Shown piece after piece: positions 3,332 to 33,764 of a stretch of 33,764 nucleotides of DNA. Both the position numbers and the translations under genes were made by a program. The notes under the pieces are model-generated. The model did not search any database. It was not told where the DNA came from and saw only the letters and a list, made by a program, of their open reading frames with translations. The DNA comes from Candidatus Manganitrophus noduliformans (GTDB lineage: Bacteria > Nitrospirota > Nitrospiria > SBBL01 > Manganitrophaceae): the NCBI RefSeq assembly GCF_012184425.1, contig NZ_VTOW01000012.1:1-33764 (forward strand). Reading direction: 5' to 3'. Numbering within the stretch: position 1 is the stretch's first letter; every line of letters begins with the position of its first letter.

Positions 3332-5173
3332 ATGCACGAAAGAAATCGGATCCGGACAATCGTTATGCTTTTACTCTTCTCTCTTGTGTTACAAAGTTGC
3401 GGCGGCGGGGGAGGAAGCTCAGGAGGAAATCCGCCCGCCGGCGCAATCACCGTGTCGGGAACGGCGGCGACCGGCGCCCCCGTCGGGAACGCCACGATCA
3501 CGATCAAGGACGCCACCGGCGCATCCAAGACCGCCACGACCGGCACAGACGGAAAATATACGATCGATGTCTCTGGAATGACCGCCCCCTTTCTGGCGAA
3601 GGTTGATCTGCCCGGTGGGACCGCCCTTTACAGCGTGGGAAGCGCGGCCGGCGTTGTCAACATCCACCCGCTCACCGATCTGATCATCCGGACATGGTAT
3701 GAGGTGCAAAACGGGGCCGTCGATACCGCCTTTTCCGATCCTGCGGCCGCTCCTCCGCCGACGGCAACCGAGTTGGCGGTGATCGTCTCCGTCATTAAGG
3801 ATCTGGTGTCGAAATGGCTCGTTGATGCCGGGTTGGACCTGGAGAACTTCGATCTGATCTCCACCCCGTTCGACGCCGACCAGAGCGGGTTCGACGGATT
3901 CCTCGACGATATCACGGTCGACACGACCAACCGCGTCATTAGCGTCGATACAGACGGTGATGGGACTGACGAGCAGGTAACCAATCTCGATCTCGACGGA
4001 GATGACGACGGGACCAACGGTGATATCACGGCCGCTACTACTATCGTGGTAAACGGCACCACCAGCACCAGCTTTACCTCCGCCTTCATCCCGACGACCG
4101 CCACGGAGCGCGAAGGCGTAGCAGGCGCACTCGCCACTCTTCAGAGCCTCGCAGCCACGGCTACCGCCAAAGGGGCTGATCTTGCGGCAACCGATTTGCT
4201 CCCCCTCTATGACTCCAATTACCGACATCGGGGGCTTGATGAAAACCAAGACGCTGCAGGATTTGCCGATGATTTGAGAGGAACTACGATTGAGTCCTTC
4301 ATCGTGGAGCGCGTCCTCTCCTTCGATTCGACGAACAACATCATTAGCATTTCCGGACGCGTCATCCTCACCCAGGATGGGGTAACAGTAGAGGAGATCG
4401 TCGATGAAGACGGAGACGGCCTCATTTTCAAGAAGCAGAGTGATGGACGCTGGCTTTTTTATGGAAACCAAGAACGGGCAAGGGCTCAGGTGGGAGTGAT
4501 TACCGAGCGGAGGATGCTCGGGATCACTTGTCCATCGGGCTGCGACGGTGTCTACTACGCCCTGAAAGTTCAGGTCGGGGCGCCGGTCGGCGAGATCGCC
4601 TCGGCGACCATCACCGGCCTGATTGGCGGATCTCAGCAGACCCTGCCCCTGACCAGTACCGGTACTTTCACGGACGACGGGGTGAACACGGAGCATTTTG
4701 ACCTCCAAGACAGCGGAAGTTGGTGGTACCAATTGAGTGGGCCGTCCGCCTTTCCTCCGGCGGGAACGGTCTACACCCTGACCGTCACCTTTGCAGACTC
4801 AAACCAGGAGGTCTACACCCGCGTCCTGGGGGCCTCGACCAGCGAAGCGTTCAACCTCCAAAGCGGGGTAGAAGCAACGGTCGGCCACGGCTCCGGTGCG
4901 ACATTGGGTAACCCGGTGACTTTAAGCTGGACCCTCCCAGTGTCGTTCCCGATCGAGGAGGTCTTCATGTATGGTTCTCTGAAGTCGACGGGGGGTGTCG
5001 GCTGCGACGTCGAAGGACCACTATTAGCATCCACGGCGACTTCAGGCACTATTACCTTGCCGACTACCTGTAATGGGCAATCCGTTGAAGTCAACCCTTC
5101 TTATCCCAGTATCAATGTGGTGGTACAGGGGAAAAACGGAGAGGAAACATCAATCTGGTATGCCTTTCAATAA
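3332..5173 (+). CDS. Large secreted lipoprotein with carboxypeptidase-regulatory-like domain and acidic calcium-type loops
   Basis: A strong ribosome site GAGGAGG lies 6-7 nt before the ATG. The first 23 residues form a lipoprotein signal (positively charged start, then MLLLFSLVLQSC), so the Cys in LQSC should be lipidated, followed by a Gly/Ser linker that tethers the mature part. Residues about 35-85 (ITVSGTAATGAPVGNATITI and onward to DGKYTIDVSG) resemble a carboxypeptidase-regulatory/SdrD-type beta domain. Around residues 205-235 there are Asp-rich loops (DTDGDGTDEQ, DLDGDDDG) like thrombospondin type 3 or EF-hand calcium sites, and another, DEDGDGL, near 355. The last third is beta-rich with paired Cys residues. 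At 613 aa it is a cell-surface protein of unknown role. It stands alone between its own promoter region and the terminator at 5202. Confidence 0.85.
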   Translation: MHERNRIRTIVMLLLFSLVLQSCGGGGGSSGGNPPAGAITVSGTAATGAPVGNATITIKDATGASKTATTGTDGKYTIDVSGMTAPFLAKVDLPGGTALYSVGSAAGVVNIHPLTDLIIRTWYEVQNGAVDTAFSDPAAAPPPTATELAVIVSVIKDLVSKWLVDAGLDLENFDLISTPFDADQSGFDGFLDDITVDTTNRVISVDTDGDGTDEQVTNLDLDGDDDGTNGDITAATTIVVNGTTSTSFTSAFIPTTATEREGVAGALATLQSLAATATAKGADLAATDLLPLYDSNYRHRGLDENQDAAGFADDLRGTTIESFIVERVLSFDSTNNIISISGRVILTQDGVTVEEIVDEDGDGLIFKKQSDGRWLFYGNQERARAQVGVITERRMLGITCPSGCDGVYYALKVQVGAPVGEIASATITGLIGGSQQTLPLTSTGTFTDDGVNTEHFDLQDSGSWWYQLSGPSAFPPAGTVYTLTVTFADSNQEVYTRVLGASTSEAFNLQSGVEATVGHGSGATLGNPVTLSWTLPVSFPIEEVFMYGSLKSTGGVGCDVEGPLLASTATSGTITLPTTCNGQSVEVNPSYPSINVVVQGKNGEETSIWYAFQ

Positions 5174-5232: not shown

Positions 5233-6072
5233 TCTTGATCTGGCTCGTTATGGTTTCCCTGAAATTCATTACTCCGGATTAAAGATTCATACACTGCCAC
5301 TGAGGTATATAGCTCTATTGGATGAGCATTCAATTGTCGAGAAAGTTAGAAAAAGTATGGCCGTCCTGTAGGCCTACGGAAAAGGAGAAAACTGTTAAAA
5401 TGGACACGCCGATCAGCGCGGCCATCGGCAAGACGGTAGATTTATATCACGGAATCGATGGGATGAGTGACTCAAAGGGCAGGGCAGTAAATCTACAAAT
5501 GAATACCGTGGAAGTCGGCTTCCACACTATACCATTTTCAAAAACCGGAACATGTCGAAATTGATTTTACTACGGTTATCGAAGATGCAGAACCTGATGT
5601 TGATGATCACAGAGGAAATACTTCATAATGTTTGTTATCTGATATTTGTAGTGTACACTCGAGGTGAGAGTAAAAAGGCTCCTTCAGGCTCAGTTTATCC
5701 ATTCCGCTGCCGCTGTGTCGAGATTTTCAACGAGGCCATTGACTTCCAAACGCTATGCTCAGGAATCTATCCGGGTGGTTTATTCGGATAGGCTCCTCAG
5801 ACCATCTTGTTGTACTAGGAGTTTCAGAAGATGGAGGATTTAAACGCATTGCACATCGGAGCTACATTTCGAGAAGAAGCCAGAACACCCTTTTTATAAA
5901 ATCTCTTATGACGCTACCCGTATCGCCCTTGCTCCAAGGGAGGCATTCTGTCTTTGCAGCGGCTGACTGTCAGCGATGCGTTATAGCTTAGCTGTTAATA
6001 ATTAGGAGTAATTATCCTTTCCGAATATATATATTAATGTAATAATTATTCCTATACAGTATAAAATCACTT
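5233..6072. other. Long intergenic region without a recognisable gene
   Basis: About 840 bases hold only short open frames. One (ATG 5400 to 5564, beginning MDTPISAAIGKTVD, with AAAGGAGAAA 10-15 nt upstream) could be a 54-aa protein but has no recognisable family. Another stretch at 5640-5990 is open in short frames without sensible content. Between 6004 and 6050 a nearly palindromic AT-rich segment (AGGAGTAATTAT ... ATAATTATTCCT) directly precedes the TATAAAAT sequence of the RNA element at 6073. The region may be the remains of lost genes. Confidence 0.4.
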
Positions 6073-6146
6073 AAGAGGCTGGCGGTCGGAGAAATATAGA
6101 ACCCAGAGGCCCAAGACGAAAAGTACTCGTCTTGGGCCTTCTGATT
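6073..6146 (+). ncRNA. Structured leader element, copy 1, with terminator hairpin
   Basis: This copy begins AAGAGGCTGGCGGTC, continues through GAACCCAGAGGCCCAAG, and ends in a perfect 13-bp hairpin (6107-6119 with 6127-6139, 7-nt loop) followed by a T-containing tail. The same order of conserved blocks occurs at 9910 and, on the minus strand, at 25280, and all three have a TATA-rich hexamer a few bases upstream (here TATAAAAT). The next gene-like sequence downstream is the GAF pseudogene from 6355, so the gene once controlled by this copy may be decayed. I do not match it to a known riboswitch class. See copies 2 and 3. Confidence 0.65.
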
Positions 6147-9909: not shown

Positions 9910-9985
9910 AAGAGGCTGGTGGTCAGAAAGACCAGGGAACCCAGAAGCCCAAGGTGAGAGCCAATCGACTTGGGCTTTTTTGTTT
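9910..9985 (+). ncRNA. Structured leader element, copy 2, upstream of a secreted-protein gene
   Basis: This copy starts AAGAGGCTGGTGGTC, forms a small hairpin TGGTC-agaaa-GACCA, continues GGGAACCCAGAAGCCCAAG and ends in an imperfect hairpin (9945-9957 with 9965-9977) followed by TTTTTGTTTTT, a textbook intrinsic terminator. The ATG of the secreted-protein gene is 36 nt further on. The arrangement of conserved folded 5' domain, terminator, then gene is that of a transcription-attenuating riboswitch or leader RNA. The 5' CTGG can pair with CCAG just ahead of the terminator, which could offer competing folds. Confidence 0.7.
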
Positions 9986-11765: not shown

Positions 11766-12743
11766 ATGAAATCGAATTGTTTCTTTTTTATCTTCTTCTT
11801 TTTGATTGCGGTCTTGCTAAGTTGCCAAGCGCCCCCCGAAGAGCCGCTCCAAATCGGATATATCGACTGGCCTGGTTATGAAATCCTCTACTTAGCGCAA
11901 CAAAAAGATTTCTTTCAGGAGGAAAAAGCCCCGATCCTCTTAAAAGATTTTTCCTCCTTTAGTGATCTAAGAAAAGCCCTTCAATTGGGAAGATTGGATG
12001 GAGCGGCGATGTCAATTAACGAAATGCTCCTCGCACGGCTTGGGGAGGAATACCGCGTCGTCTTTGTCCTGAATGTTTCACAGGGGGCTGACGGAATCGT
12101 CGGACAGCACGAATTTCAATCGATTAGGAATCTCAAGCATAAGCGGGTGGGTGTCGAGTTAACCGGACTCGGCGGGTATTTGTTGGCGCGCGCATTGGAA
12201 ATAGCCGATATGGAGATATCAGAGGTCATTCGCGTCAATATGACCGCGACAATCGAGGCGTACACCGCTTTCTCGGAAAGGAAAGTAGATGCCGTGGTGA
12301 CGTTTGAGCCAATCCTGAGCCGGCTGGTCACCGAACAGGGTGGAAAGATCCTTTTTACCAGCCGCGAGATCCCGGACGAAATTATCAACGTGTTGATCTT
12401 TCACAAGGATGCCTTGAAGTACCGCCGGGACGATTGTTTGAGAGTGCTACGGGGCTATCTTAAGGCGCGCGAATTCTGGAAGAAAGAGCCGGACCAGGCC
12501 ATCGCAATTATGGCGCGTCGAGAGAGGGTCAGCCCTGATTACTTCCGGCAAAGCTTGAATGGGCTGCTGATTCCCGATCTCTCGACCAATTTGACCTATT
12601 TCGGGCTCAGCGATACCGAGAACTACTTTCTGGAAAGCATAAAGAATTTCCAAAGCTTTATGGAAGAGAATGACCTCCCATATGGACCAGTCTATTTTGA
12701 AAATCTTCTCAATGATTTAAAACGCCATGAACAATTTTCATAG
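11766..12743 (+). CDS. NMT1/SsuA-like substrate-binding lipoprotein
   Basis: The start is MKSNCFFFIFFFLIAVLLSC with the lipobox LLSC, so the protein is a periplasmic lipoprotein. The mature part starts LQIGYIDWPGYEILYLAQQK, the usual opening of NMT1/ThiY/SsuA-type solute-binding proteins. It continues with ALQLGRLDGAAMSINEMLLA, then LKHKRVGVELTGLGGYLLAR (hinge/ligand loop) and VDAVVTFEPI. ATG at 11766 is preferred over an in-frame GTG at 11754; neither has a good ribosome site. There are no permease or ATPase genes nearby. Instead the stop overlaps by 17 nt the start of a membrane hybrid histidine kinase, so this protein probably presents a ligand to that kinase rather than to a transporter. 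The ligand cannot be told from the sequence; thiamin precursors, alkanesulfonates or nitrate-like anions are the family's range. Confidence 0.85.
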   Translation: MKSNCFFFIFFFLIAVLLSCQAPPEEPLQIGYIDWPGYEILYLAQQKDFFQEEKAPILLKDFSSFSDLRKALQLGRLDGAAMSINEMLLARLGEEYRVVFVLNVSQGADGIVGQHEFQSIRNLKHKRVGVELTGLGGYLLARALEIADMEISEVIRVNMTATIEAYTAFSERKVDAVVTFEPILSRLVTEQGGKILFTSREIPDEIINVLIFHKDALKYRRDDCLRVLRGYLKAREFWKKEPDQAIAIMARRERVSPDYFRQSLNGLLIPDLSTNLTYFGLSDTENYFLESIKNFQSFMEENDLPYGPVYFENLLNDLKRHEQFS

Positions 12744-15024
12744 CAAAGTCAGGAGAATCCGTTCGATCTCGGCCGTCATCGTCCTGATGATGCTGGTCGG
12801 CGGGATTCTCTTCGCCTTCATCATTGCTGGAGCTTCCTACGGGATGCAACGGAGGAACAATATCAAGGACTTGCAAATACGCGCGCAGGCAACCAGTGAT
12901 CAGCTCAACTACATTGCCGAGATCCTCCTGAATAAAGGAGACCTCAACTCTGTGCAGCGGATTGTTGAAAATATCGCCACGGATCGAACGATTACCTTCA
13001 TCGCTATTGTCGATGCCAACCTCAAGGTATTGGCATCGACTCAGCACGATCTTCTTGGCGCATCGATCTCCGAGTACAAGGAAAATCCTAAAATCTTAGC
13101 TCATTTTCGGCGTGTGATCATCAATGGGAAAACGGAATTCATCCATCGACCTGAACAGGGCCATTTTGATATAATCGCCCCCATCATCCTCGCAAACCCT
13201 TCCCGCACAATCCCTCTTCTGTCGGGGGCGGTGACAGTCGTGTTCAGGGATGACCCGCTGGTCTGGAATCCACGGGAGAGCTTCTGGAGATACCTTCAGC
13301 TCGCGCTGGTGCTGAGCGCTTTTGCAATCGCGATTCTTTATGCGGTTCTCCGTCGCTGGGTGGCCTATCCCATTGAACGACTCACACGGGTCTCCGAGCG
13401 GCTCGGCTCCGGAGAGCTGGGGATTCAAATACCGGTCTCCTCTTCCGATGAAGTCGGGCGGCTGGCAGAAACTTTCAACCGGATGTCGGTCTCCTTGGCG
13501 ACGCAGCGACGCGCCCTTCAGGCCACCGAAGAGCGGTACCTTCGAGTCTTCCACTCTTCTCCCGTTTGCCTGATCGTTGTCGATCCCGCCGGAACTATCA
13601 TCGATGTCAATGCAACCTTCCTCGCCGAGATGGATAGGCGGTCGGACCGCCAAGTCTGGATTGGAAAGCCAATCACAGAGATCCCCTTCATCAAGGCGGG
13701 AGGATTGCAGCCGGAAATTCAAAACCTCCTGGTGAATGCGACCCCTTTCAGAAGTTGGAAGGTCTCTATTCCCCTCCCTGACAAAGAACATCGCTGCCTT
13801 TTCAACTTCAGCGGCATCCCTCTTTTCGATGATAAACATGTCTTGACCGGGGCAGTCATCGCGGCAGAAGATATCACAGCGGAGCAGACGCTGGAGGCGC
13901 AACTAATCCAGTCTCAAAAAATGGAAAGTCTGGGGGTGCTGGCGGGCGGGATCGCCCATGACTTCAACAATATCCTCACCGGCATCCTCGGATACGCGTC
14001 CCTGTTGAAAAAGCGGCTGGCACGCGACGATCCGAGCCTGCCGGCAGTAGAAGTGATCGAAAAATCGGGGCTTCGCGCGCGCGCATTGATTCAACAGCTG
14101 ATGGGCTTTGCCCGGCGAACGGAATCAATCAAGTTGCCGGTCGACGTCAACAGCCTTGTCACTGAGATTGTCCTTTTACTCCAGAAGGGGATGGTGGGAC
14201 AGGGGGTCTCCATCCAGGTCGATCTTGACCCAACTTCTCCAAAGATCATCGCCAATAGCGGCCAGCTTCACCAGGCGCTGATGAATCTCTGCGTCAATGC
14301 GAGGGATGCGCTCCCCCCTGAGGGTGGAACGATCTTTTTGAAAACGCACGCTCGGTCGATGCCTTCCCTCTCCGATTCTGAACATAAGAAAGAATGGGTC
14401 GAGGTTTCAGTCCGGGATACAGGGGCTGGCATAAAACCCGAGGTCCTCTCCCGCATTTTTGAGCCGTTTTTTACAACGAAAGAGTTTGGAAAGGGGACGG
14501 GCCTGGGGCTTTCAGTCACTTATGGCATTGTGAAAGCGCACGGCGGGGAGATTTCTGTCCAATCCGAACCGGACAAAGGATCGATTTTTATGCTCCGCTT
14601 TCCAGAGGTGCGAGAAGCATCAAAGCGGAAAGAGGCCAAGGGCCAAGAGGTCCTTCTGAAGGGGAAGAAGCGGCCGATCCTCCTGGTCGATGATGAAAAG
14701 ACGCTCCTGGAGTTGGAGAAGAAACTCCTTGAAGAGAGGGATTTCGAAGTCCTGACCGCAGAGACGGGGGAGGAAGCGATCGAGATTTATCGCAAACACG
14801 GTCGTGAAATCCGCCTGGTGGTCCTCGATCTCCTGATGCCTGGGATCGGGGGATGGAATGCCTATCTACAACTCCGGGAGATGGATGCCGAGGTGAAGGT
14901 CCTCTTCACCAGCGGGTACGGCGGAGTAAAAGAATTTGAAGAGCAGATCAAAACACTCCCCTTCTTGTGGAAACCCTATCGGATAGAGGAATTCCTCGCC
15001 GCAGTTGAAAAGGCGCTCGCGTGA
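12727..15024 (+). CDS. Membrane hybrid histidine kinase (periplasmic sensor-HAMP-PAS-HisKA-HATPase-REC)
   Basis: The 765-aa product has a first membrane helix at about residues 15-38, a periplasmic sensor region of about 150 residues, and a second helix near 188-210. A HAMP domain (YPIERLTRVSERLGSGELG) and a PAS domain at about 270-395 follow. His411 lies in GGIAHDFNNILTGILGY. The ATP-binding domain has NLCVNARDAL, DTGAGI and GTGLGLSVTYGIVKAHGG. A receiver domain from about 648 has Asp701 in VLDLLMPG and the Lys in LWKPY. All catalytic residues look intact. Translation is coupled to the binding lipoprotein upstream (17-nt overlap), which suggests that the loaded binding protein is its signal. 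No output regulator is adjacent; the C-terminal receiver probably relays to a partner or tunes the kinase. Confidence 0.92.
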   Translation: MNNFHSKVRRIRSISAVIVLMMLVGGILFAFIIAGASYGMQRRNNIKDLQIRAQATSDQLNYIAEILLNKGDLNSVQRIVENIATDRTITFIAIVDANLKVLASTQHDLLGASISEYKENPKILAHFRRVIINGKTEFIHRPEQGHFDIIAPIILANPSRTIPLLSGAVTVVFRDDPLVWNPRESFWRYLQLALVLSAFAIAILYAVLRRWVAYPIERLTRVSERLGSGELGIQIPVSSSDEVGRLAETFNRMSVSLATQRRALQATEERYLRVFHSSPVCLIVVDPAGTIIDVNATFLAEMDRRSDRQVWIGKPITEIPFIKAGGLQPEIQNLLVNATPFRSWKVSIPLPDKEHRCLFNFSGIPLFDDKHVLTGAVIAAEDITAEQTLEAQLIQSQKMESLGVLAGGIAHDFNNILTGILGYASLLKKRLARDDPSLPAVEVIEKSGLRARALIQQLMGFARRTESIKLPVDVNSLVTEIVLLLQKGMVGQGVSIQVDLDPTSPKIIANSGQLHQALMNLCVNARDALPPEGGTIFLKTHARSMPSLSDSEHKKEWVEVSVRDTGAGIKPEVLSRIFEPFFTTKEFGKGTGLGLSVTYGIVKAHGGEISVQSEPDKGSIFMLRFPEVREASKRKEAKGQEVLLKGKKRPILLVDDEKTLLELEKKLLEERDFEVLTAETGEEAIEIYRKHGREIRLVVLDLLMPGIGGWNAYLQLREMDAEVKVLFTSGYGGVKEFEEQIKTLPFLWKPYRIEEFLAAVEKALA

Positions 15025-23482: not shown

Positions 23483-25006
23483 TCAATCAGGAATAGGCGT
23501 TGGTCCAAAGGCATACTTTAACGCATAGTTGCCGCCATCTCGGTAACTCACATGGACAGTTTGATCGGGTCCATCCGATTCCAGCGCCAAATAGCCATCC
23601 CCGCCTATCGTTCCGGGAGCGTCGATAAGATAAAGACTCCACTGACTTGGATCGATGCACCCCCCGACGCAGAAGGCATATTTCAGATCGCCGTTTCTGC
23701 TATCTCCATAGATGACATGAAGACGGTTTTGTCCATCGATTCTTATCTGCGTACACTTCCCGGTCCCCGGATTCGAGTCGACTGTAATGGTTGTCCAATT
23801 TCCCTTCTGGGTACAATCTTTCCCGGTTGCACAGAAGGCATATTTGACGTTCCCTTCTGGATTAAGAGATCGATAGGTAATATGGACCCCATCGCTGTTT
23901 ACAGCGAGTGAGTTCTCCCTTCCCACATTCCCTATATCATCGACAACACCCAGGGACCACTCCTGAACTGTTTTACAGCTATCCGGTGTCGTCAGCGGGC
24001 AGGTGGCATATTTCAACGTCTCATTGGCATAGTAACTGATGTGAATGGCGTCGTTGGTGATAAAAGTAGAGTTCGGCTCGGCATAATTGTTGTTCCCCGG
24101 CTCCCACCCTCCGTCCACCCTGACCCTTGTCCAGGCAGGTGATTTGGTCCCGGTAGACGCTGGCCTAAGACAATTTTGAGAACAGGTCGCATAATAAAGG
24201 GCATTATCTGACTGAATTCCGTGGACAGAATCTACAAAGGTCTGATTTTTAGCCTTGTAGCTGATATGAATCCGCTCGTTACCGTCCACCTTGATCTGGG
24301 TGTAGGTCACCGCATCCGTCGTGTCGTCCACGATAACCGATTGCCAGCGACCCGATGCGTTCGTCGCGTATTTTAAAATCTTGTTAGAATCAGATTGAAG
24401 CTGATCGATAGCGGATTGATTCGCCGCTATAGAGATCTGAGCGATGCCATAGTCCCGGTAGCTTACGTGGATCTGATGGTTCTGATCGATTGCCATGTTC
24501 CCATCTCGCCCCAACCCTTGAGGGCCGGACCCCTGATCGATGATCTCTTTTTGCCAGCTATCCAAGAAGCTGCAATCGTTTTCGCTAGCACACCAGGCGT
24601 GTTTGAGCGCCCCGTCAGAAGCCGAAAGGTAGGTGATATGAACTGTCGTTCCATTGGAATCGGAATAGACAGCGACAGTCGTGGCTTCGCCGGCATCTTC
24701 AACAGGAACATCGACCAAATGACCGTTCCCATCTATTTGCTGTTCTGTGATTCCCCCCCCATCGATCATGACTTTTTTAAAGCCAAGATCTTCTGAAGAA
24801 GTCGGAGGCTCCGTCGGAGCGGGATTGGATGATCCCTCTCCGCCATCCGAATTTCCGGATGATCCCCCTCCCCCGTCCGAATTTCCAGAAGAGTCGCTCT
24901 CTATATCATTTTTAACACTGCCCTCTCCACTGCTTCCGCATCCCGATAAGGTGATGGCGATGAGAAACAAACCGACAATCCACCCTTTCAATCCAAGATT
25001 TTTCAT
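23483..25006 (-). CDS. Secreted lipoprotein with beta-propeller-like repeats
   Basis: I chose ATG at 25006, with AAAGGA 7 nt before it, because it starts the lipoprotein signal MKNLGLKGWIVGLFLIAITL with lipobox LSGC; an ATG 12 codons upstream would spoil the signal. A repeated linker (NSDGGGGSSGNSDGGEGSS) follows the lipid-bearing Cys. The rest, about 440 residues, is built of repeats of 50-70 residues of the kind LKYA-(T/F)-C ... W ... VD ... G ... (I/V)HVSYRD, for example MAIDQNHQIHVSYRDYG, RLHVIYGDSRNGDLKYAFC and TVHVSYRDGGNYALKYAFG. This resembles BNR/sialidase-type propellers, and each repeat carries one or two Cys. No catalytic site is evident, so it may be a surface binding protein. 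It is the first gene after the leader RNA copy 3. Confidence 0.83.
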   Translation of the reverse strand: MKNLGLKGWIVGLFLIAITLSGCGSSGEGSVKNDIESDSSGNSDGGGGSSGNSDGGEGSSNPAPTEPPTSSEDLGFKKVMIDGGGITEQQIDGNGHLVDVPVEDAGEATTVAVYSDSNGTTVHITYLSASDGALKHAWCASENDCSFLDSWQKEIIDQGSGPQGLGRDGNMAIDQNHQIHVSYRDYGIAQISIAANQSAIDQLQSDSNKILKYATNASGRWQSVIVDDTTDAVTYTQIKVDGNERIHISYKAKNQTFVDSVHGIQSDNALYYATCSQNCLRPASTGTKSPAWTRVRVDGGWEPGNNNYAEPNSTFITNDAIHISYYANETLKYATCPLTTPDSCKTVQEWSLGVVDDIGNVGRENSLAVNSDGVHITYRSLNPEGNVKYAFCATGKDCTQKGNWTTITVDSNPGTGKCTQIRIDGQNRLHVIYGDSRNGDLKYAFCVGGCIDPSQWSLYLIDAPGTIGGDGYLALESDGPDQTVHVSYRDGGNYALKYAFGPTPIPD

Positions 25007-25204
25007 GACAAATCCTTTAAAGAGTCGTTCCCATAATTTCAAAAGAATACCGACGCTTCATCTGACTTTCCAAACAAAGAATCAATGACGCACTTTCTTT
25101 CTCTTTCCACATCCTAATTTTAGGCACCTGCGATCTTTGAAACTGAAATTAATGCGGTATGGACTCTTATCGTCAGCTTATAATGAATCTCCTGAGTTAT
25201 TTTT

Positions 25205-25280
25205 ATAAATAAAAAGCCCATGGTGATTGTATCTCACCTTGGGCTTCTGGGTTCTTTGGTCCTTCGACCACCAGCCTCTT
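25205..25280 (-). ncRNA. Structured leader element, copy 3, upstream of the exported-protein operon
   Basis: On the minus strand this copy reads AAGAGGCTGGTGGTC from 25280, forms GGTC-gaag-GACC, then AAGAACCCAGAAGCCCAAG, and ends in a 13-bp hairpin with one mismatch (25214-25226 with 25234-25246) followed by TTTTTATTTATAAAA. TATACT lies 4 nt upstream of the AAGAGG. The first gene in the same direction starts at 25006, about 200 nt downstream. The small hairpin keeps its pairing with a different loop compared with copy 2, which supports a real RNA structure. Confidence 0.7.
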
Positions 25281-25584: not shown

Positions 25585-27606
25585 CTATGAAGCAGTTTCC
25601 GTAAACTGATTGATTACTTTTGCAATGACGGTTATCAGCTCATCCGGTTTGGCTTGTTTTGGGAGATATGCTTGGAAGCCGGCAGAGAGGGCTCGTTCGT
25701 GCTCATCCTCCCTGGCAAAAGCGGTCAGGGCAATCACTGGAATTTTACTGATGCCGCGTTGCCTCTCCCATTCTCTGACCTTTTCAAGCAAAACATAGCC
25801 GTCCATCGGCATCCGAATATCGGAGATTAGCAGATCGAGCCGCTTCCGCTCCAATATCTCTAATGCCTCCTGAGCCGAGGCGGCCGCCGTCACGTGGATG
25901 CCATATCCTTCCAGGGCGATCTTCAGCAATGTGCGTACATCCACTTCATCATCGACCAAAAGTAGATTCCAGTTATATAGCGCTGGAAGGCTACCGAAAG
26001 ATTCCTCCTGTTTCGCGGGGGAACGGCCCGGTTCCGAGTCATCCTCTTTTCTCTGAACATCCCGGATCGGAAGTCTGACGGTGACTGTTGCCCCCTTCCC
26101 CTCTCCCGGACTTTCAGCCAAGACGCTTCCGCCGTGCAACTCTACGAGATGTTTCACGATGGCAAGACCGAGTCCTAAACCTTTCTGCGATCTTTTGGTG
26201 CTTCCCTCAGCCCGACGAAAACGGTTGAACATATAAGGCAGAAAGTCAGAAGGAATACCCATTCCGTAATCTTTGACACGAATCTGAATATATGGATCCA
26301 CCTGCTCCAAAAAGATCTCGATGCGTCCTTTATCGGGGGTGAACTTAATCGCATTGGAGAGTAAGTTCCCGAGCACCTGTTGCAGCCGCTCGGGATCAAT
26401 CATGACAGGATTAATGGAGGGATCGAGCATCATTTTCATCTCAATCCGCTTGGCCTCTGCTGTCTGGCGAACGGTCTCAACGGCGGCCTTAATAATCGGG
26501 ACCAAACTCAATGGACGGAGATCCAGGCGAAGTTTTCCGGAAATCATATGTGAGACATCCAAAAGCGCTCTGATCAGGTGCTCCCGCGCCCTTGCATTTT
26601 GCTCAAGCGCCTCCAATACAATCTGCTGTCTTTCGGGATCAAGTCCTCCCATCCCGAGCAACTGGGCCCACCCATAGTTGGCATTTAGCGGGATTCGCAA
26701 TTCATCGGAGATGATCGCTAAGAATTCATCTTTCAGCCGATTCGCTTCCTGGGCTTCCAATCTCGCCTTCTGCTCACGCGCAAGAAGCGCTTCTCTCTCC
26801 CTCTCAGCTTGTTTGCACTCAGTGATATCCTCGGCGATTCCGGTAATCCTGCAGATCCGTCCCGATTCATCCTTAATCGGAAAGGCCCGATCTCGAATCC
26901 AGCGAACCGAGCCATCCGGCCGGATGATCCGGAACTCCTCATCATAGGAGCCTACGCCGTGCTGGATCCATAAAAGCTGATGGGTCATGACTGCTCTCTC
27001 GATCCTGTCTCGATCATCCGGATGAATCGCATCCAGCCATGTGGTCGGCTGTTCATACAGGCTCTTATAGTTCCGCCCCCATATCTTCTCATATGCGGGA
27101 CTAATATAGAGCATCCCGCTTTCATCGGTGCTGCTCATCCAGAAAACCTCGGTGATATTCTCAGCCAATTGCAAAAAACGGTACTCACTCTGCTGAAGTT
27201 CCTTTTCCATTTTTTTGCGCTCGCGACGCACTTGGCTCTCACGCAGCTCTCGCTCGACGACAGGAACCAGGCGCCGAAGATTTTCTTTTAGGATATAATC
27301 CTTCGCCCCGGCCTTCATTGTCTTCACAGCAAGATCTTCGTCGACGCCGTCGGATAGCGTAATGAATGGCAGCTCAAACCCGCTTTTCTGCAACAGGTCC
27401 AACGCGGCAGGAGCGCTGAAATTCGGCAGGTTGTAAGCGGCAATCACAACGTCCCATTCGGTTTCAGACAATGCGTTTGTCATGCCTTCGGCCGTATCCA
27501 CCCGGTCACAGGTTACCTCATAGCCGCCACGGCATAGTTCAACCAACAGCGACTCGACATCTTCCCTCGAATCTCCAACAATTAATACTCGAAGTGATAT
27601 GTCCAT
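25585..27606 (-). CDS. Degenerate hybrid histidine kinase (REC-PAS-HisKA-HATPase-REC) lacking the phosphoacceptor His
   Basis: ATG at 27606 is chosen because GAGGAG lies 7 nt upstream; a longer frame reaches 27708. The 673-aa product has an N-terminal receiver-like domain (LRVLIVGDSREDVESLLVEL), a PAS domain (about 145-270), a dimerisation domain, an ATP-binding domain (NLLSNAIKFTP, DYGMGI, GLGLGLAIVKHLVELHGG) and a C-terminal receiver (LLLVDDEVDVRTLL, Asp596 in LISDIRMP, Lys in YLPKQ). The H box reads FLAIISDELRIPLNA where relatives have SHELRTPLNA: Asp301 (codon GAT, 26704-26706) replaces the phosphoacceptor His. In the first receiver the phosphoacceptor is Ala57 (VVIAAYNLP for VISDYSMP) and one pocket acid is Gly (VGDS). 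Only the last receiver looks functional. The frame is otherwise intact over 2 kb, so it may act as a non-catalytic scaffold or be an early pseudogene. Confidence 0.88.
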   Translation of the reverse strand: MDISLRVLIVGDSREDVESLLVELCRGGYEVTCDRVDTAEGMTNALSETEWDVVIAAYNLPNFSAPAALDLLQKSGFELPFITLSDGVDEDLAVKTMKAGAKDYILKENLRRLVPVVERELRESQVRRERKKMEKELQQSEYRFLQLAENITEVFWMSSTDESGMLYISPAYEKIWGRNYKSLYEQPTTWLDAIHPDDRDRIERAVMTHQLLWIQHGVGSYDEEFRIIRPDGSVRWIRDRAFPIKDESGRICRITGIAEDITECKQAEREREALLAREQKARLEAQEANRLKDEFLAIISDELRIPLNANYGWAQLLGMGGLDPERQQIVLEALEQNARAREHLIRALLDVSHMISGKLRLDLRPLSLVPIIKAAVETVRQTAEAKRIEMKMMLDPSINPVMIDPERLQQVLGNLLSNAIKFTPDKGRIEIFLEQVDPYIQIRVKDYGMGIPSDFLPYMFNRFRRAEGSTKRSQKGLGLGLAIVKHLVELHGGSVLAESPGEGKGATVTVRLPIRDVQRKEDDSEPGRSPAKQEESFGSLPALYNWNLLLVDDEVDVRTLLKIALEGYGIHVTAAASAQEALEILERKRLDLLISDIRMPMDGYVLLEKVREWERQRGISKIPVIALTAFAREDEHERALSAGFQAYLPKQAKPDELITVIAKVINQFTETAS

Positions 27607-27890
27607 CCCACTCTCCTCTTTGAATCCGGGCTCTTGCCATATGCCGTGACCCGGTTTCCAACTTTCGGCTCCTGAATCCTTATCGCCGCCACGCAAGTTA
27701 TCCGTCATCTCTACATATATACCTTGAATATATAATCTTAATCATGATACAGTCAAGCGGAATAAAAAACGGACCAAGAACATATGGATAGGTTGTAAGC
27801 GGATTGATCAGGCCACTCTTATATCGAGCATCTAATGTTAGAAAATCGAGAGACGGTGAGAAGGGGGTGGATGAACAAGAAGGAGGTCCA

Positions 27891-28082
27891 GTGACGAAAT
27901 CGAGCCAAAATCTTAAGAAGAAAAAAGACTCAGACCAAAAGATCGATACTACCGAAGATCCGCAAGTCCGATGCGATTGTGGCCAGTTGGTTGCTCGGCT
28001 TACCTCGCTCGGCGTCGAGATCAAATGCAAGCGGTGCAAGAGGATAACCATTATTCCAGTCAAAAATAAGAATCCTAAATAA
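27891..28082 (+). CDS. Small Com-like zinc-ribbon protein, copy 1
   Basis: The start is GTG at 27891 with AAGGAGG 4 nt upstream, which gives 63 aa: a charged Lys-rich start (KSSQNLKKKKDSDQK), then VRCDCGQLVARLTSLGVEIK and CKRCKRITIIPVK. The C-x-C-G ... C-x-x-C arrangement with the sequence GVEIKCKRCKR resembles the Com family of zinc-finger proteins (named after the phage Mu translational activator of mom) and similar small prophage-like or regulatory zinc ribbons. A longer start at a GTG near 27867 is possible. It is 85 nt upstream of the giant kinase gene in the same direction, and a clear paralogue lies on the other side of that gene at 33311-33502. A role in RNA or DNA binding is a family-based guess. 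Confidence 0.8.
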   Translation: MTKSSQNLKKKKDSDQKIDTTEDPQVRCDCGQLVARLTSLGVEIKCKRCKRITIIPVKNKNPK

Positions 28083-28167
28083 AGAGAAGTAAAGGAACAT
28101 AGACCCCGAAGAGATTCTTCGAATATAATTCCAGATGTTAGAATCAGTGCACGCTAAAGGCATTCTA

Positions 28168-31100
28168 ATGGATCATTCGGACTTTAAGAGCCGCCTTTTT
28201 GGTAATCGCTTCCAGCCGACGCGACTTCTAAAGGAAGCTCAGGGAATCAAGACTCTGCTCGGAACCGATTTTGCCAAGCGTTGCGAGGTCGTCATCAAAC
28301 TAATCCCTGCCTCAAGAGTTTCTGCTACCGCTCATCAGCGTCTGGAATACGAAATGCATATGCTCGGCAAGATCCAGAGTCCGCATTTGGTCGCCCCGCT
28401 TGCTGTTGGCGTTGAGGAAGATCTGTTCTATATCGTCCGGCTGTTTGTCCAGGGTGCCTCGCTCGCGGAGCGCCTTGGTAGAAGTCCGCTCCCGATAGGT
28501 TGCGCCGTTCCAGTGACTCTGGGAATCCTCCGCTCCCTTTGTGAGGCGCATAAACATGGCCTGGTTCATCGCAACTTGAAACCGGCCAATGTGATCTTAA
28601 CAGGTGACGCTTCTCCGGAAGAGATCAGACTCATCGATTCTGGGTACTCCCTGACCGGAGGGATCGATCATTACGGCCATCACATCCCATTGGATACTCT
28701 TTGGTATACCTCACCGGAAGCGGCTGGTCTTTTAAATCGAACTCTTGATGGTCGTTCCGATCTCTATGCCGTAGGTGTTCTACTGTTTCAACTCCTGACG
28801 GGCCATCTTCCATTCGAAGGGAAAACAATCGGCGAGCTCTTGCAGCAACACCTCTCCGCTCCACCCCCCAACCTTCTCACCCTGAGCGTGAGCGTGCCTC
28901 GCATCTTAGACGAGCTGTTGCAACGCCTGCTTCGGAAGGATCCTCGCGATCGGTATCAATCCGCCGAGGCGGTGAGTGCCGATCTAGCTTACATTGCCAC
29001 CGCTTTGGAAGAGGGTATTCGTGAGCCCACTTTCGTCCTCGGCTCGCACGATCGATATCAGCAGCTCACTGAGTCCTCCTTTGTTGGACGAAGTCGAGAA
29101 CTGAAAGAGCTTCAGAAAGTCTTTGATTTGGCAAAGGGAGGAAAAGGGGGGTTGGCTTTCGTGGAAGCGGAGTCGGGAGGCGGCAAATCGAGGCTACTCT
29201 ATGAGTTTACACAAAGAGCTCTGCAGCAAGGAGCAAGGGTCTTACATGGCACGGGACAGAGTCAAGTCGGCGCAAAGGCATTTCAGATCCTCGATGACGT
29301 CGCCTCTGAACTGATCTCGATCATCCGCTTCGATCCCTTACTAGGAGAGAGGATTGCCCAAGGCCTGGGGGATCACCGCGAAGCTGCCATCATCACCTTG
29401 CCCAAGCTCGCTAAAGTTTTGGGAGAGGGAAATTCGGCGCTTCTCGGCAACGAACAGCATGGCGAGATCCGGGCGATTCAAGCCTTGAGGGTGTTGCTCG
29501 ATCTACTCGGGTCCCAGACAAAGCCAGCCATAGTCATACTCGATGACGCTCAATGGTCGGATAGTCTGAGCGTGAAACTACTCAGAGAATGGCAGAGCCA
29601 GAAGGAGGCAGAGGATCGCTCTGGCCGTTTTGTGATGATTATTCTTTCATTCCGCACCGAAGAGGTCCCGAAGGACCACCCCATACGGTACCTGAAGCCA
29701 CTCACAGAACTGTCACTCGACCTTCTTGGGCAGGAAGATATGAAAGCCTTGCTCGAGTCGATGGCCGGTCCATTGCCTCAGGAAGCGACGACAGCAGTGG
29801 CCCGGCTTGCAGAAGGGAACCCCTTCTTGGCCGGAGCGGTTCTACAGGGCCTTGTTGAGACGGGCGCTATTGCGTATAACGCATCGGGATGGCGCGTGGA
29901 AGCGAGCATCTTGGTTAATCTCCAGGCCTCCGGAAAAGCCAAGGCGTTTTTGGTCCGCCGACTGGAGCAACTCCCGCAGGAAGTTTTTTCTTTTCTGACT
30001 GTGGGCGCGGTGCTTGGGAGGAGCTTTGATCTGGAGTTTGCCCTGACGATCACGGGCCAAACGTCGCAAGAAGGCTTTGCAATGGTGGGAGAGGCGCAAC
30101 GGCGGCACATCGTCTGGATGGATGCAGACAGCCGACGGTGTACTTTCCTTCATGACAAGCTGCGCGAGAGCTTGCTCGGACGACTTTCTGAAGAAAATCG
30201 CAAGCGTTTGCACCGAGAAGCGGCAATACTGCTCGAATCGCGGGATAGAAATCTTGTCTTTGACCTCGCCTACCACTTTGATGCCTCCAGCGACCCCGCA
30301 CGGGCCTTCCCGTATGCGCTCGCCGCAGCTGAACGGGCCCGCTCTCAATATGCATTGGAAGTGGCAGAACAGCAGTATCGCATCGCCGAGCGGGGTCTTC
30401 TCGCGGAAGATGAGGCACTCCGCAGTCGGGTCATTGAGGGACTTGGCACAACAATGATGCTACTCGGCGACTATGACAAGGCCGGTGCGTATTTCGAACA
30501 GGCCCGTTTGCTTGCAAAGGACAAATTCAAGCGTGTGGAAATTGATTGTCTCCTTGGTGATCTGGCCTTTAAAGGTGGAGACCTGCCCCGCGCCGATGAA
30601 AGGCTGCAAAGTTGTTTACGATCACTGGGCTACAAGGTCCCGAATCCAAAAAGCTTGGTCTGCTTACTGATGGGGCTGTCGCGGGAAGCTGTGGTGCAAG
30701 CTTTCCATACCTTTCTCCCAGGACTCTTCTTGCATCGTCGGAAGCTGGAAGGAGAAGAAGAGCGGCTCCTAGCCGCACGCCTCTATATTCGGATGGGATA
30801 TATATGGTGGTTTTTACATGGACCGATCGCATGCTTATGGAGTAACCAGCGGTCAATGAACATTGCTGAATGTTATCCCCCCTCCCCTGAGTTGCAGCTA
30901 ATCTATGACACTCAAGCGCCCGTCATGAGCGCTCTTCCCAACTTTAGCCGGTCGCTACGTTATCCTCAAAAAGCCCTTACTTTCGCGAAGGCCCGGGGCG
31001 ATGTCTGGGGGCAGGGGCATTCCTACGCATTTATCGGAATGGCCTACTATAACAGATCCGACTTCCCCGCAGCCGTCGAGAATTGCAGGGAGGGGATCAG

Positions 31101-33144
31101 ACTCCTCACGCGCGCGGGAGATCTTTGGGAAGCCCTGATCGCAGGCTTTACCCTGTCAGCAGCGCTATACCGAATGGGGAACTTCCGAGAGGCGATTTCT
31201 GAAGCGCGTCGTGTCTTCTACTTGGGAAGACAGATTGGAGACATACATGGGAGCAGTTGGTGCCTGGAAATCTGGTCGAAGGCGTCTGGTGGGAGGGTGC
31301 CGACAAATCTCGTCCAAGAGATGATGGAACTCACCAAGCATGACCCGCAAATTTTTGAGGCCGCGCTCCAGGCAGAGGGGATCCGGCTCTTGGGGGAGGG
31401 ACGCTTCGGAGAAGCTGCGTCAGCCTTCGAGAAGGCACAAAAAGTAGCGGATACCGCCATGCTCAGGAGCGACTATGTCGCCGGCATTCAGACCTGGGTG
31501 GCCACCTGTCTGCGTAAAGAGGCTGAAGCCAGACCTTTTCTGGATCAGGTGGGGCGACAAGCGCTGTTGCGTCGCGCGCGCCGGGCGGCACGTCGAGGTC
31601 TCCGTATGGCCCGCTGGTACCAAAACGGCCTTCCGCACGCGCTTCGTGAAACCGGCCTGTTGGCAATGCTTGAGGGGCGTATCGAGCAGGCAGAGAAATG
31701 TCTCAAAGAGAGTCTAGAGGTTGCAGAACGCCAGGGCGCCAGGTATGAAGCGGCCCAGACCCGACTCGCTCAAGCAGAATTGCATGCAATAATGGCTCAA
31801 CCTGGTGCGAACCTTGAAGTCGAAGCAGCTCGCCGAGAGGTTATCGCATTTGGAGCAGGCTTTGAAATGGGGACCGAAGGAATGGCCTGTGAGAATAACC
31901 CGCAAACGAAACCGGTCACGCATTCTCTTGTCGATCGATTTTCTACCCTCCAAGAGGTCGGCCGAAAAATCGTCGCGGCCCATTCTAAAGAATCGATTTA
32001 TTCCGAAATCTACAACGGGATGCTAGCCTTGCTTCGAAGCGAAGAGTGTCGTATCATCGATATAAATGATACATATAAGGAAGGAACGCCCCCAAACCCC
32101 GTAAGCGAAGTCGAAAGCAGCGAGTTTATTATCGAGCTGGTTCGTCAAAGCCTTAAAGCAGGGGGTTCTGTCGTTTTCACGGCAGATATGGCCAATGATA
32201 TTGGAGATCGCCTGCTGAATGCCAAGGTTGCCTCGGTGCTCTGTGCACCCATCGTCGTCCGAGGAAGTGTCCGGGCCGTTGTTTTCACCCTACATCGACA
32301 GATCCGGAGTCTTTTTGGTGAGGACGAGAAGCTGCTGGCGGAGTTTATTGCTGCACTGGCCGGGGTGGCGCTGGAGAATGCCGAGGGATTGGCTGAGATA
32401 CAAGAGCTATCGAAATCCCTGGAGAGAAAAATTGAAGAGCGAACGGCTCAGTTGAAGGAAAAAAACCGTGATCTTGAATCGTTTGTTTATGCTGTCTCCC
32501 ATGACCTAAAAGCCCCCGTTGTCTCCATGGATGGATTCGCTTCCAGGGTATTAGAAGACTATGGGGAAAAATTGGATGACAACGGAAAGCGCTATCTGAA
32601 CCGTATTCAAGCAAACGTGAATTTTATGCAAAAGCTCATCGTTGATCTTCTAGAGTTTTACAAAGTGGGAAAGCGATCAGAAAAGCCGGAAGTGTTACAA
32701 ACCGAAGTGGTTTTGCGGGAAGTCTTGCAACTATGTATCGGTCCCATCCAGCGGCGGAATACCAAGCTCTCGATCCATTCTCCTCTTCCGACAACCTTTT
32801 TTGACCCGACCTCCTTGAAACAGATTTTCTTAAACCTCATTACAAATGGGGTTAAATTTATGGGGAATCAATCTTACCCTAGGATCGAAATTGGAGGTCG
32901 GGAAATAGACGGATTCGTAGAATTCTATGTAAAAGACAATGGAATTGGAATTGATCCACAAAATCATGAGCAGATCTTCGGAGTTTTCCAACGCCTCAAA
33001 GAGGTTGAGGTAGAAGGCTCGGGAATTGGGTTAGCGACGGTCAAAAAGATTATCGATTCGGCGGGCGGAAAGATCTGGCTTCAATCTCAAAGGGGACACG
33101 GAACGACTTTCTTTTTCTGTATCCCAAAAAACCGAAAAGGATAA
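28168..33144 (+). CDS. Giant fusion: Ser/Thr kinase-like domain, AAA ATPase, TPR-like repeats, GAF, histidine kinase
   Basis: ATG at 28168 is preceded by AAAGG (7 nt); an upstream ATG at 28135 has no ribosome site. The 1658 residues order as follows. Ser/Thr kinase fold about 1-280: VVIK lysine is present, but the catalytic loop reads LVHRNLKPANVIL, with Asn136 for the catalytic Asp, and the metal loop reads DSG (Asp157) instead of DFG. ATPase about 300-560: Walker A ESGGGKS (Lys340) and Walker B VILDDAQWSD. A long helical TPR-like region spans about 640-1190 and a GAF domain about 1215-1390. A coiled coil ending IEERTAQLKEKN is followed by His1445 in AVSHDLKAPV and an ATP-binding domain with NLITNGVKFM, DNGIGID and GSGIGLATVKKI. 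Such fusions of kinase, ATPase and histidine kinase are known in environmental bacteria. Here the histidine kinase looks active but the Ser/Thr kinase part probably is not. Confidence 0.92.
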   Translation: MDHSDFKSRLFGNRFQPTRLLKEAQGIKTLLGTDFAKRCEVVIKLIPASRVSATAHQRLEYEMHMLGKIQSPHLVAPLAVGVEEDLFYIVRLFVQGASLAERLGRSPLPIGCAVPVTLGILRSLCEAHKHGLVHRNLKPANVILTGDASPEEIRLIDSGYSLTGGIDHYGHHIPLDTLWYTSPEAAGLLNRTLDGRSDLYAVGVLLFQLLTGHLPFEGKTIGELLQQHLSAPPPNLLTLSVSVPRILDELLQRLLRKDPRDRYQSAEAVSADLAYIATALEEGIREPTFVLGSHDRYQQLTESSFVGRSRELKELQKVFDLAKGGKGGLAFVEAESGGGKSRLLYEFTQRALQQGARVLHGTGQSQVGAKAFQILDDVASELISIIRFDPLLGERIAQGLGDHREAAIITLPKLAKVLGEGNSALLGNEQHGEIRAIQALRVLLDLLGSQTKPAIVILDDAQWSDSLSVKLLREWQSQKEAEDRSGRFVMIILSFRTEEVPKDHPIRYLKPLTELSLDLLGQEDMKALLESMAGPLPQEATTAVARLAEGNPFLAGAVLQGLVETGAIAYNASGWRVEASILVNLQASGKAKAFLVRRLEQLPQEVFSFLTVGAVLGRSFDLEFALTITGQTSQEGFAMVGEAQRRHIVWMDADSRRCTFLHDKLRESLLGRLSEENRKRLHREAAILLESRDRNLVFDLAYHFDASSDPARAFPYALAAAERARSQYALEVAEQQYRIAERGLLAEDEALRSRVIEGLGTTMMLLGDYDKAGAYFEQARLLAKDKFKRVEIDCLLGDLAFKGGDLPRADERLQSCLRSLGYKVPNPKSLVCLLMGLSREAVVQAFHTFLPGLFLHRRKLEGEEERLLAARLYIRMGYIWWFLHGPIACLWSNQRSMNIAECYPPSPELQLIYDTQAPVMSALPNFSRSLRYPQKALTFAKARGDVWGQGHSYAFIGMAYYNRSDFPAAVENCREGIRLLTRAGDLWEALIAGFTLSAALYRMGNFREAISEARRVFYLGRQIGDIHGSSWCLEIWSKASGGRVPTNLVQEMMELTKHDPQIFEAALQAEGIRLLGEGRFGEAASAFEKAQKVADTAMLRSDYVAGIQTWVATCLRKEAEARPFLDQVGRQALLRRARRAARRGLRMARWYQNGLPHALRETGLLAMLEGRIEQAEKCLKESLEVAERQGARYEAAQTRLAQAELHAIMAQPGANLEVEAARREVIAFGAGFEMGTEGMACENNPQTKPVTHSLVDRFSTLQEVGRKIVAAHSKESIYSEIYNGMLALLRSEECRIIDINDTYKEGTPPNPVSEVESSEFIIELVRQSLKAGGSVVFTADMANDIGDRLLNAKVASVLCAPIVVRGSVRAVVFTLHRQIRSLFGEDEKLLAEFIAALAGVALENAEGLAEIQELSKSLERKIEERTAQLKEKNRDLESFVYAVSHDLKAPVVSMDGFASRVLEDYGEKLDDNGKRYLNRIQANVNFMQKLIVDLLEFYKVGKRSEKPEVLQTEVVLREVLQLCIGPIQRRNTKLSIHSPLPTTFFDPTSLKQIFLNLITNGVKFMGNQSYPRIEIGGREIDGFVEFYVKDNGIGIDPQNHEQIFGVFQRLKEVEVEGSGIGLATVKKIIDSAGGKIWLQSQRGHGTTFFFCIPKNRKG

Positions 33145-33310: not shown

Positions 33311-33502
33311 TTATCTCCCTCGCGATTTTCCCTTCTTGAGTGGGATAATGGTTACTCTCTTGCACCGCTTGCATTTAATTTCAACGCCTGTCTCAGTAAG
33401 CCGAGCCTGTAGACGACCGCACTCGCATCGAACCTCCCCGATCTTATCAGGATCGACCTCATGAATTAATTCGTCGGGTTCATGGCCCGGCTTTGTGTTC
33501 AT
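33311..33502 (-). CDS. Small Com-like zinc-ribbon protein, copy 2
   Basis: ATG at 33502 follows GAGGAGATTCC, which is a good ribosome site; a longer frame to 33529 is less likely. The 63-aa product has an acidic N-terminus (HEPDELIHEVDPDKIG), then VRCECGRLQARLTETGVEIK and CKRCKRVTIIPLKKGKSRGR. It has the same C-x-C-G and C-x-x-C pairs as the protein at 27891-28082, with near identity over about 30 residues but an acidic rather than a Lys-rich N-terminus. It is transcribed towards the giant kinase gene, so the pair brackets that gene in opposite orientations. The family (Com-like zinc ribbon) is inferred from the Cys pattern; function unknown. Confidence 0.8.
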   Translation of the reverse strand: MNTKPGHEPDELIHEVDPDKIGEVRCECGRLQARLTETGVEIKCKRCKRVTIIPLKKGKSRGR

Positions 33503-33637: not shown

Positions 33638-33764
33638 TGTAAAAACCAAGATTTGATCTGACATTTTATGTTGGGGTTCCTGGATGTTTGGTTTCTCCTG
33701 ATTGTCAGATCGTCTTATGCGACGAGCATCTTCTCCTTGGCCAGAGGCAGACTGTCGATGAATG
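33638..33764. repeat. Right copy of 127-bp terminal inverted repeat
   Basis: Exact reverse complement of bases 1-127, with identity ending at the first inner base (33637). The inner flanks of the two copies differ completely: an IS630 remnant on the left, unremarkable AT-rich sequence on the right. The repeat edge at 33638 starts TGTAAAAACC. Confidence 0.95.
33715..33762 (-). CDS. C-terminal fragment of an unidentified ORF, second copy
   Basis: Same 15 codons and TAA stop as at 3-50, in reverse orientation, as a consequence of the terminal inverted repeat. The rest of the gene lies outside the window. Confidence 0.35.
   Translation of the reverse strand, partial: FIDSLPLAKEKMLVA

Follow-up and report, generated by a model that had tools for sequence, protein, structure and literature searches.

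Pseudo-histidine kinases are an already recognized group, and HisKA domains without the phosphoacceptor histidine make up about 0.9% of a bacterial set (722 of 76,471; PMC12632262). Among the precedents that have been tested, DivL of Caulobacter crescentus acts on CckA and DivK, sensing DivK~P and controlling cell fate although it has neither kinase nor phosphatase activity (PMC4211667), and RetS of Pseudomonas aeruginosa, a hybrid kinase without autokinase activity, acts on its sibling kinase GacS (PMC5992135). In plants, the subfamily-2 ethylene receptors (ETR2, ERS2) are membrane receptors that still signal through diverged histidine-kinase domains lacking the histidine, with Ser/Thr kinase activity reported in vitro. 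To our knowledge, few His-less bacterial HisKA domains have been studied, and in the part of the literature that we covered no bacterial H→D case was found by name.

The gene described here lies in a window of 33,764 nt (the whole stretch of DNA that was analysed) from Candidatus Manganitrophus noduliformans. Like DivL (PDB 4q20), its product has a HisKA-HATPase core without the histidine that is kept by selection. However, DivL carries Tyr550, binds ATP weakly and works via DivK~P and CckA, whereas in the window protein a receiver stands at either end and the phosphorylation site is occupied by Asp301 rather than by the Tyr that would mark a DivL orthologue. The window protein shares with RetS a C-terminal receiver apparently able to take phosphate in trans, but the degeneration is reversed: in RetS the HATPase is degenerate and the H box retains its His and Thr, while the window protein lacks His but is complete at the ATP site. 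The resemblance to the ethylene receptors is one of description. As in the pseudo-receivers (PsR; Bourret et al. 2025, PMC12632262), the N-terminal receiver of the window protein is without the phospho-Asp and one acidic residue, although Asp12 (DD2), which pseudo-receivers lose more often than any other position, is retained, and related receivers of the genus (L166 and L177, below) are also without the Asp. This H→D form is an independent member of the pseudo-histidine kinases: its ATP site is intact, its N-terminal receiver is a pseudo-receiver, and it arose once, within one genus.

Results

Gene organization and domain architecture

The gene runs on the minus strand from 27606 to 25585 and comprises 673 codons and a stop, with no internal stops, in agreement with the open frame originally reported; the plus strand over the same interval contains many stops. 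An alternative in-frame ATG at 27708, which would add 34 codons, was rejected because similarity to the orthologue starts at 27606. The features are as follows, all on the minus strand.

25585..27606, hybrid pseudo-histidine kinase of 673 aa (REC-PAS-HisKA-HATPase_c-REC; Pfam PF00072 twice, PF08447, PF00512, PF02518)
27613..27619, Shine-Dalgarno sequence AGAGGAG, 6 nt upstream of the ATG at 27606
27232..27606, N-terminal receiver, residues 1-125, degenerate (Gly11, Ala57), with S85 and K107 kept
27436..27438, codon 57, Ala at the receiver phospho-Asp position (Asp kept by the orthologue)
26809..27219, PAS domain, about residues 130-266 (the orthologue has one extra PAS after it)
26542..26751, DHp/HisKA domain, about residues 286-355
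26704..26706, codon 301, GAT (Asp) for the phosphoacceptor His, within ISDELRIPLNA
26692..26694, codon 305, Ile for the ExxT phosphatase Thr (T305I), window copy only
26062..26541, CA/HATPase_c domain with complete N, G1 and G2 boxes
25603..25977, C-terminal receiver with D552, D553, D596, T628 and K650
25804..25809, one-codon loss in the loop after D596 (P600-M601), window copy only

The HisKA and HATPase_c domains are recognizable by profile, PF00512 scoring 34.8 bits (cut-off 26.9) and PF02518 100.2 bits. An AlphaFold2 model built with 17 sequences has a mean pLDDT of 81 and a pTM of 0.43, so that the domains are confident and their arrangement is not. The modelled core matches HK853 complexes with a TM of 0.88 by target length and DivL (4q20) with 0.81, and the model carries no information on activity.

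The phosphoacceptor histidine is replaced and the ATP site is complete

The histidine expected in the H box of a canonical hybrid histidine kinase is replaced by Asp301, as the original prediction had read from GAT at this codon. Every aligned homologue that covers this position has His there, except the window copy and its orthologue, which have Asp. The window genome (5.2 Mb, 22 contigs), in which 165 places match the Asp301 protein, has 19 HELRxPLNA sites against a single DELRxPLNA site, that of this gene. Within the genus, the DELR pattern was found only in the window genome and in that of the orthologue (G001), and among 295 sampled genomes of the phylum it occurs in the window genome alone. 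No S-D-E-[L/I]-R-T-P site was present in 42 genomes reached via loci of other phyla; this pattern is narrow, and it does not follow from such a census that H→D is absent elsewhere.

Other parts of the kinase core are retained. The predicted completeness of the ATP-binding motifs holds: N414 and N418 (NLLSNAIKF), the D447-G449-G451 region (KDYGMGI, 445-451) and GLGLGLAI (476-483) are all present. The C-terminal receiver likewise keeps the predicted Asp596, together with the remainder of the canonical set (D552, D553, T628 and K650), yet its loop is one residue short, reading DIRMP-MDG for DxxMPxxDG, and the residue after the conserved Lys is changed (P651Q). Of about 95 receiver-like loops in the loci examined, no other is short in this way, barring two odd matches, while P651Q is common to the window copy and the orthologue. 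Neither change was part of the original prediction, and the same is true of T305I, through which the window copy departs from the E/D-x-x-T/N motif for transmitter phosphatase activity in helix 1 of HisKA (DELRI; DELRT in the orthologue).

The N-terminal receiver is degenerate in a wider group

The predicted absence of the phospho-Asp and the Gly in the acidic pocket were both confirmed, with Ala57 at the former position and Gly11 where Glu is usual; Asp12 is kept. A pseudo-receiver has the receiver fold with at least one of D, DD, T and K missing, and here the fold is confident and both A57 and G11 depart from the set. The phospho-Asp position is Asp in 16 of 16 receivers compared outside the window receiver's own degenerate group. 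The orthologue keeps Asp (IADCNIP) with EN as the acidic pair. After the receiver of G001, the nearest relatives are those of L166 (genome G002) and L177 (G003), both with Asn for Asp; in a receiver tree the window, G001 and L166 form a 99/98 clade that L177 joins at 85/94. Receiver degeneration is thus a theme of the group, apart from the change in the kinase.

L166 (G002:C5, 345-968 and 1039-1872) is a REC-PAS gene that ends beside an IS1595-type transposase, and the kinase core of the Asp301-protein family was not found on that contig beyond the IS1595-type element. L177 (G003:C1:3485529 region) has the architecture REC-PAS-PAS-LuxR, in which the phospho-Asp-less receiver is joined to a DNA-binding output.

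Origin of the H→D substitution

The one known orthologue comes from a 72%-complete genome of the same genus (G001; Nitrospirota contig JAHFEM010000011.1, L016/L013). It is 76% identical over 672 aligned residues, spans 795 codons from the homologous start and has one PAS more than the window copy. Its H-box region reads ISDELRTPLNANYGW, with the same GAT for Asp, so the orthologue alignment originally proposed as a check finds the change shared. A tree of 29 cores groups the two Asp proteins in a single clade with 100/99 support, adjoining L093 (G004), L101 (G003) and L108 (G005), which are about 68-70% identical in the core and keep His. The nesting of the Asp pair inside His-type sisters indicates a single H→D event on its stem.

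At 8 of the 87 columns invariant in 13 His-type homologues, both Asp proteins have the identical new residue (H301D, I310N, A330V, R336Q, Q341R, D347A, V459M and Q465R), six of them in the DHp domain; D406 is changed in both, to different residues, and 3 further columns are changed in the window copy only and 7 in G001 only. Enrichment of shared changes in the DHp domain is suggestive (6 of 28 invariant columns versus 10 of 160 in REC1, PAS and CA together, Fisher p=0.018; versus 3 of 58 in CA alone, p=0.053). The DHp domain was not the sole part that moved, since the C-terminal receiver has shared changes in 7 of 40 columns. Since the split of the pair, DHp has been the best conserved structural domain (84%).

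No Asp-type gene was found in the close relatives G003 and G005, even though G005 stands closer to the window genome (IF-2 98% identical). The gene is thus dispensable, and the genus does not depend on its role. Lateral transfer between the two species, considered because close relatives are without the gene, was rejected, as the dS of the pair (0.65-0.89) resembles that of core genes (IF-2, Der and a TypA/LepA-type GTPase; dS 0.67-0.78, omega 0.04-0.11). The kinase pair therefore dates from about the species split, and vertical descent with loss in G003 and G005 fits. The gene rpoB was not found in G001 and was hence left out of this comparison.

The gene is maintained by purifying selection

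Comparison of the window copy with the orthologue, likewise proposed at the outset, points to purifying selection: dN is 0.128, dS 0.887 and omega 0.14 by NG86, and 0.142, 0.647 and 0.22 by maximum likelihood. A control hybrid kinase (12727-15021) gives an omega of 0.13-0.15 for the same genome pair, with a higher dS. When evolution was simulated without selection, 15-23 stops arose on average and never fewer than 7, whereas none is observed. In a relative rate comparison, 35 changes are window-derived and 44 orthologue-derived (p=0.37), so the window branch is not accelerated. The gene is maintained and is not a pseudogene, though an omega averaged over the pair would not reveal constraint lost only very recently and only on the window side.

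Neighbouring genes and repeats

A probable lipoprotein gene without a Pfam match (window 23483-25042; L016 1-1173; omega about 0.32-0.39) adjoins the Asp kinase in both genomes, in differing relative orientation. It was rejected as an operon partner because in G001 it and the kinase are on opposite strands. This neighbour aside, gene order around the orthologue is not conserved, and no conserved operon partner was found. A partly palindromic dispersed repeat of about 50-90 nt, GAAAGACCAGGGAACCCAGAAGCCCAAGGTGAGA...TTGGGCTTTTT, occurs at window 9926-9980, 25211-25265 and 6072-6115 and in the orthologue contig L016 at 1199-1290, 2381-2462 and 4370-4437. An inverted repeat of about 100 nt (75%; 27966-28066 and 33333-33433) flanks a Ser/Thr-kinase-AAA-TPR-GAF-histidine-kinase gene (28135-33144), with related copies in L016 at 2097-2198 and 2866-2954. 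Positions 1-127 and 33638-33764 of the window, at the two contig ends, are exact inverted copies of each other; this 127-nt terminal repeat resembles a k=127 overlap of the assembly graph at a repeat.

Discussion

In HisKA chemistry, Asp is unable to stand in for His as the phosphodonor. With Asp301 in place of His, a phospho-histidine intermediate is impossible, and autokinase activity has presumably been lost. The shared substitution and the purifying selection on the gene support the pseudo-histidine kinase originally predicted as a scaffold or switch, and we consider it probable that this protein is kept for a non-canonical role. Most likely it modulates one or more sibling kinases, the role favoured by the many related His-bearing kinases in the genome. 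The DHp domain would dimerize and dock response regulators or sibling kinases, the CA domain may still bind ATP, and the C-terminal receiver would take a phosphoryl group from another kinase only, by trans-phosphorylation. A His-bearing sibling kinase in the same cell could thereby be modulated through heterodimerization, docking or use of the pseudo-kinase as a phosphoryl sink. For such a role we infer ATP binding, a partner kinase and a direction of regulation. Against this reading stand the single orthologue, which comes from an incomplete genome, the dispensability of the gene in near relatives and the failure to find a conserved operon partner.

A different account is that the kinase had already lost its activity in the common ancestor and that what is left of the gene is eroding, more quickly on the window side. 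The window copy does have more catalytic losses than the orthologue (A57, G11, I305 and the codon near D596), which speak against the pseudo-kinase reading in that they could mark advancing decay, and the gene is missing from related species. However, the low omega, a frame free of stops and frameshifts at a dS of about 0.7, the unaccelerated window branch and the intact motifs of the ATP site and C-terminal receiver largely refute erosion, which we regard as unlikely. The earlier suggestion of a gene at the start of decay, tied to orthologues that all keep His, is equally at odds with an orthologue carrying Asp.

Also unlikely is a dedicated trans-kinase subunit without an acceptor of its own, in which the intact CA domain would serve solely to phosphorylate the His of a sibling kinase in a heterodimer and Asp301 would place a permanent negative charge close to the docking surface. 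Were this true, the pair would work only with both partners present and would act as a coincidence detector.

Changed chemistry, in which the CA domain would use ATP to phosphorylate Ser/Thr or other residues, has precedent in ETR2, ERS2 and EIN4 as Ser/Thr kinases (PMC3611092), and here the ATP-binding boxes are complete and Ser300 adjoins Asp301. No residue of the Asp clade suggests a new acceptor, however, and the bacterial precedent, DivL, is without kinase activity (PMC4211667), making this quite improbable. A transmitter phosphatase without kinase activity, also raised originally, could draw on the dispensability of His for HisKA phosphatase activity (PMC12632262) and on the orthologue, which keeps the ExxT threonine within DELRT. 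In the window copy that position is Ile305, and changing this Thr in RetS (T428A) abolished phosphatase activity (PMC5992135); with the codon lost near Asp596 as well, such a role is not supported for this copy, and we hold it to be very unlikely. Finally, although GAT is one base from a His codon, the sequencing or assembly error once envisaged at codon 301 has a negligible chance of being correct, as GAT also stands at this codon in an independently assembled genome, where the gene has diverged and shares seven further changes with the window copy.

Returning to a pseudo-kinase kept to modulate sibling kinases, its origin can be placed, its sisters bear His, its ATP site is complete and there is an orthologue with fewer residues lost. 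Together these make it a clean case in which to ask what replaces phosphotransfer in a pseudo-kinase.
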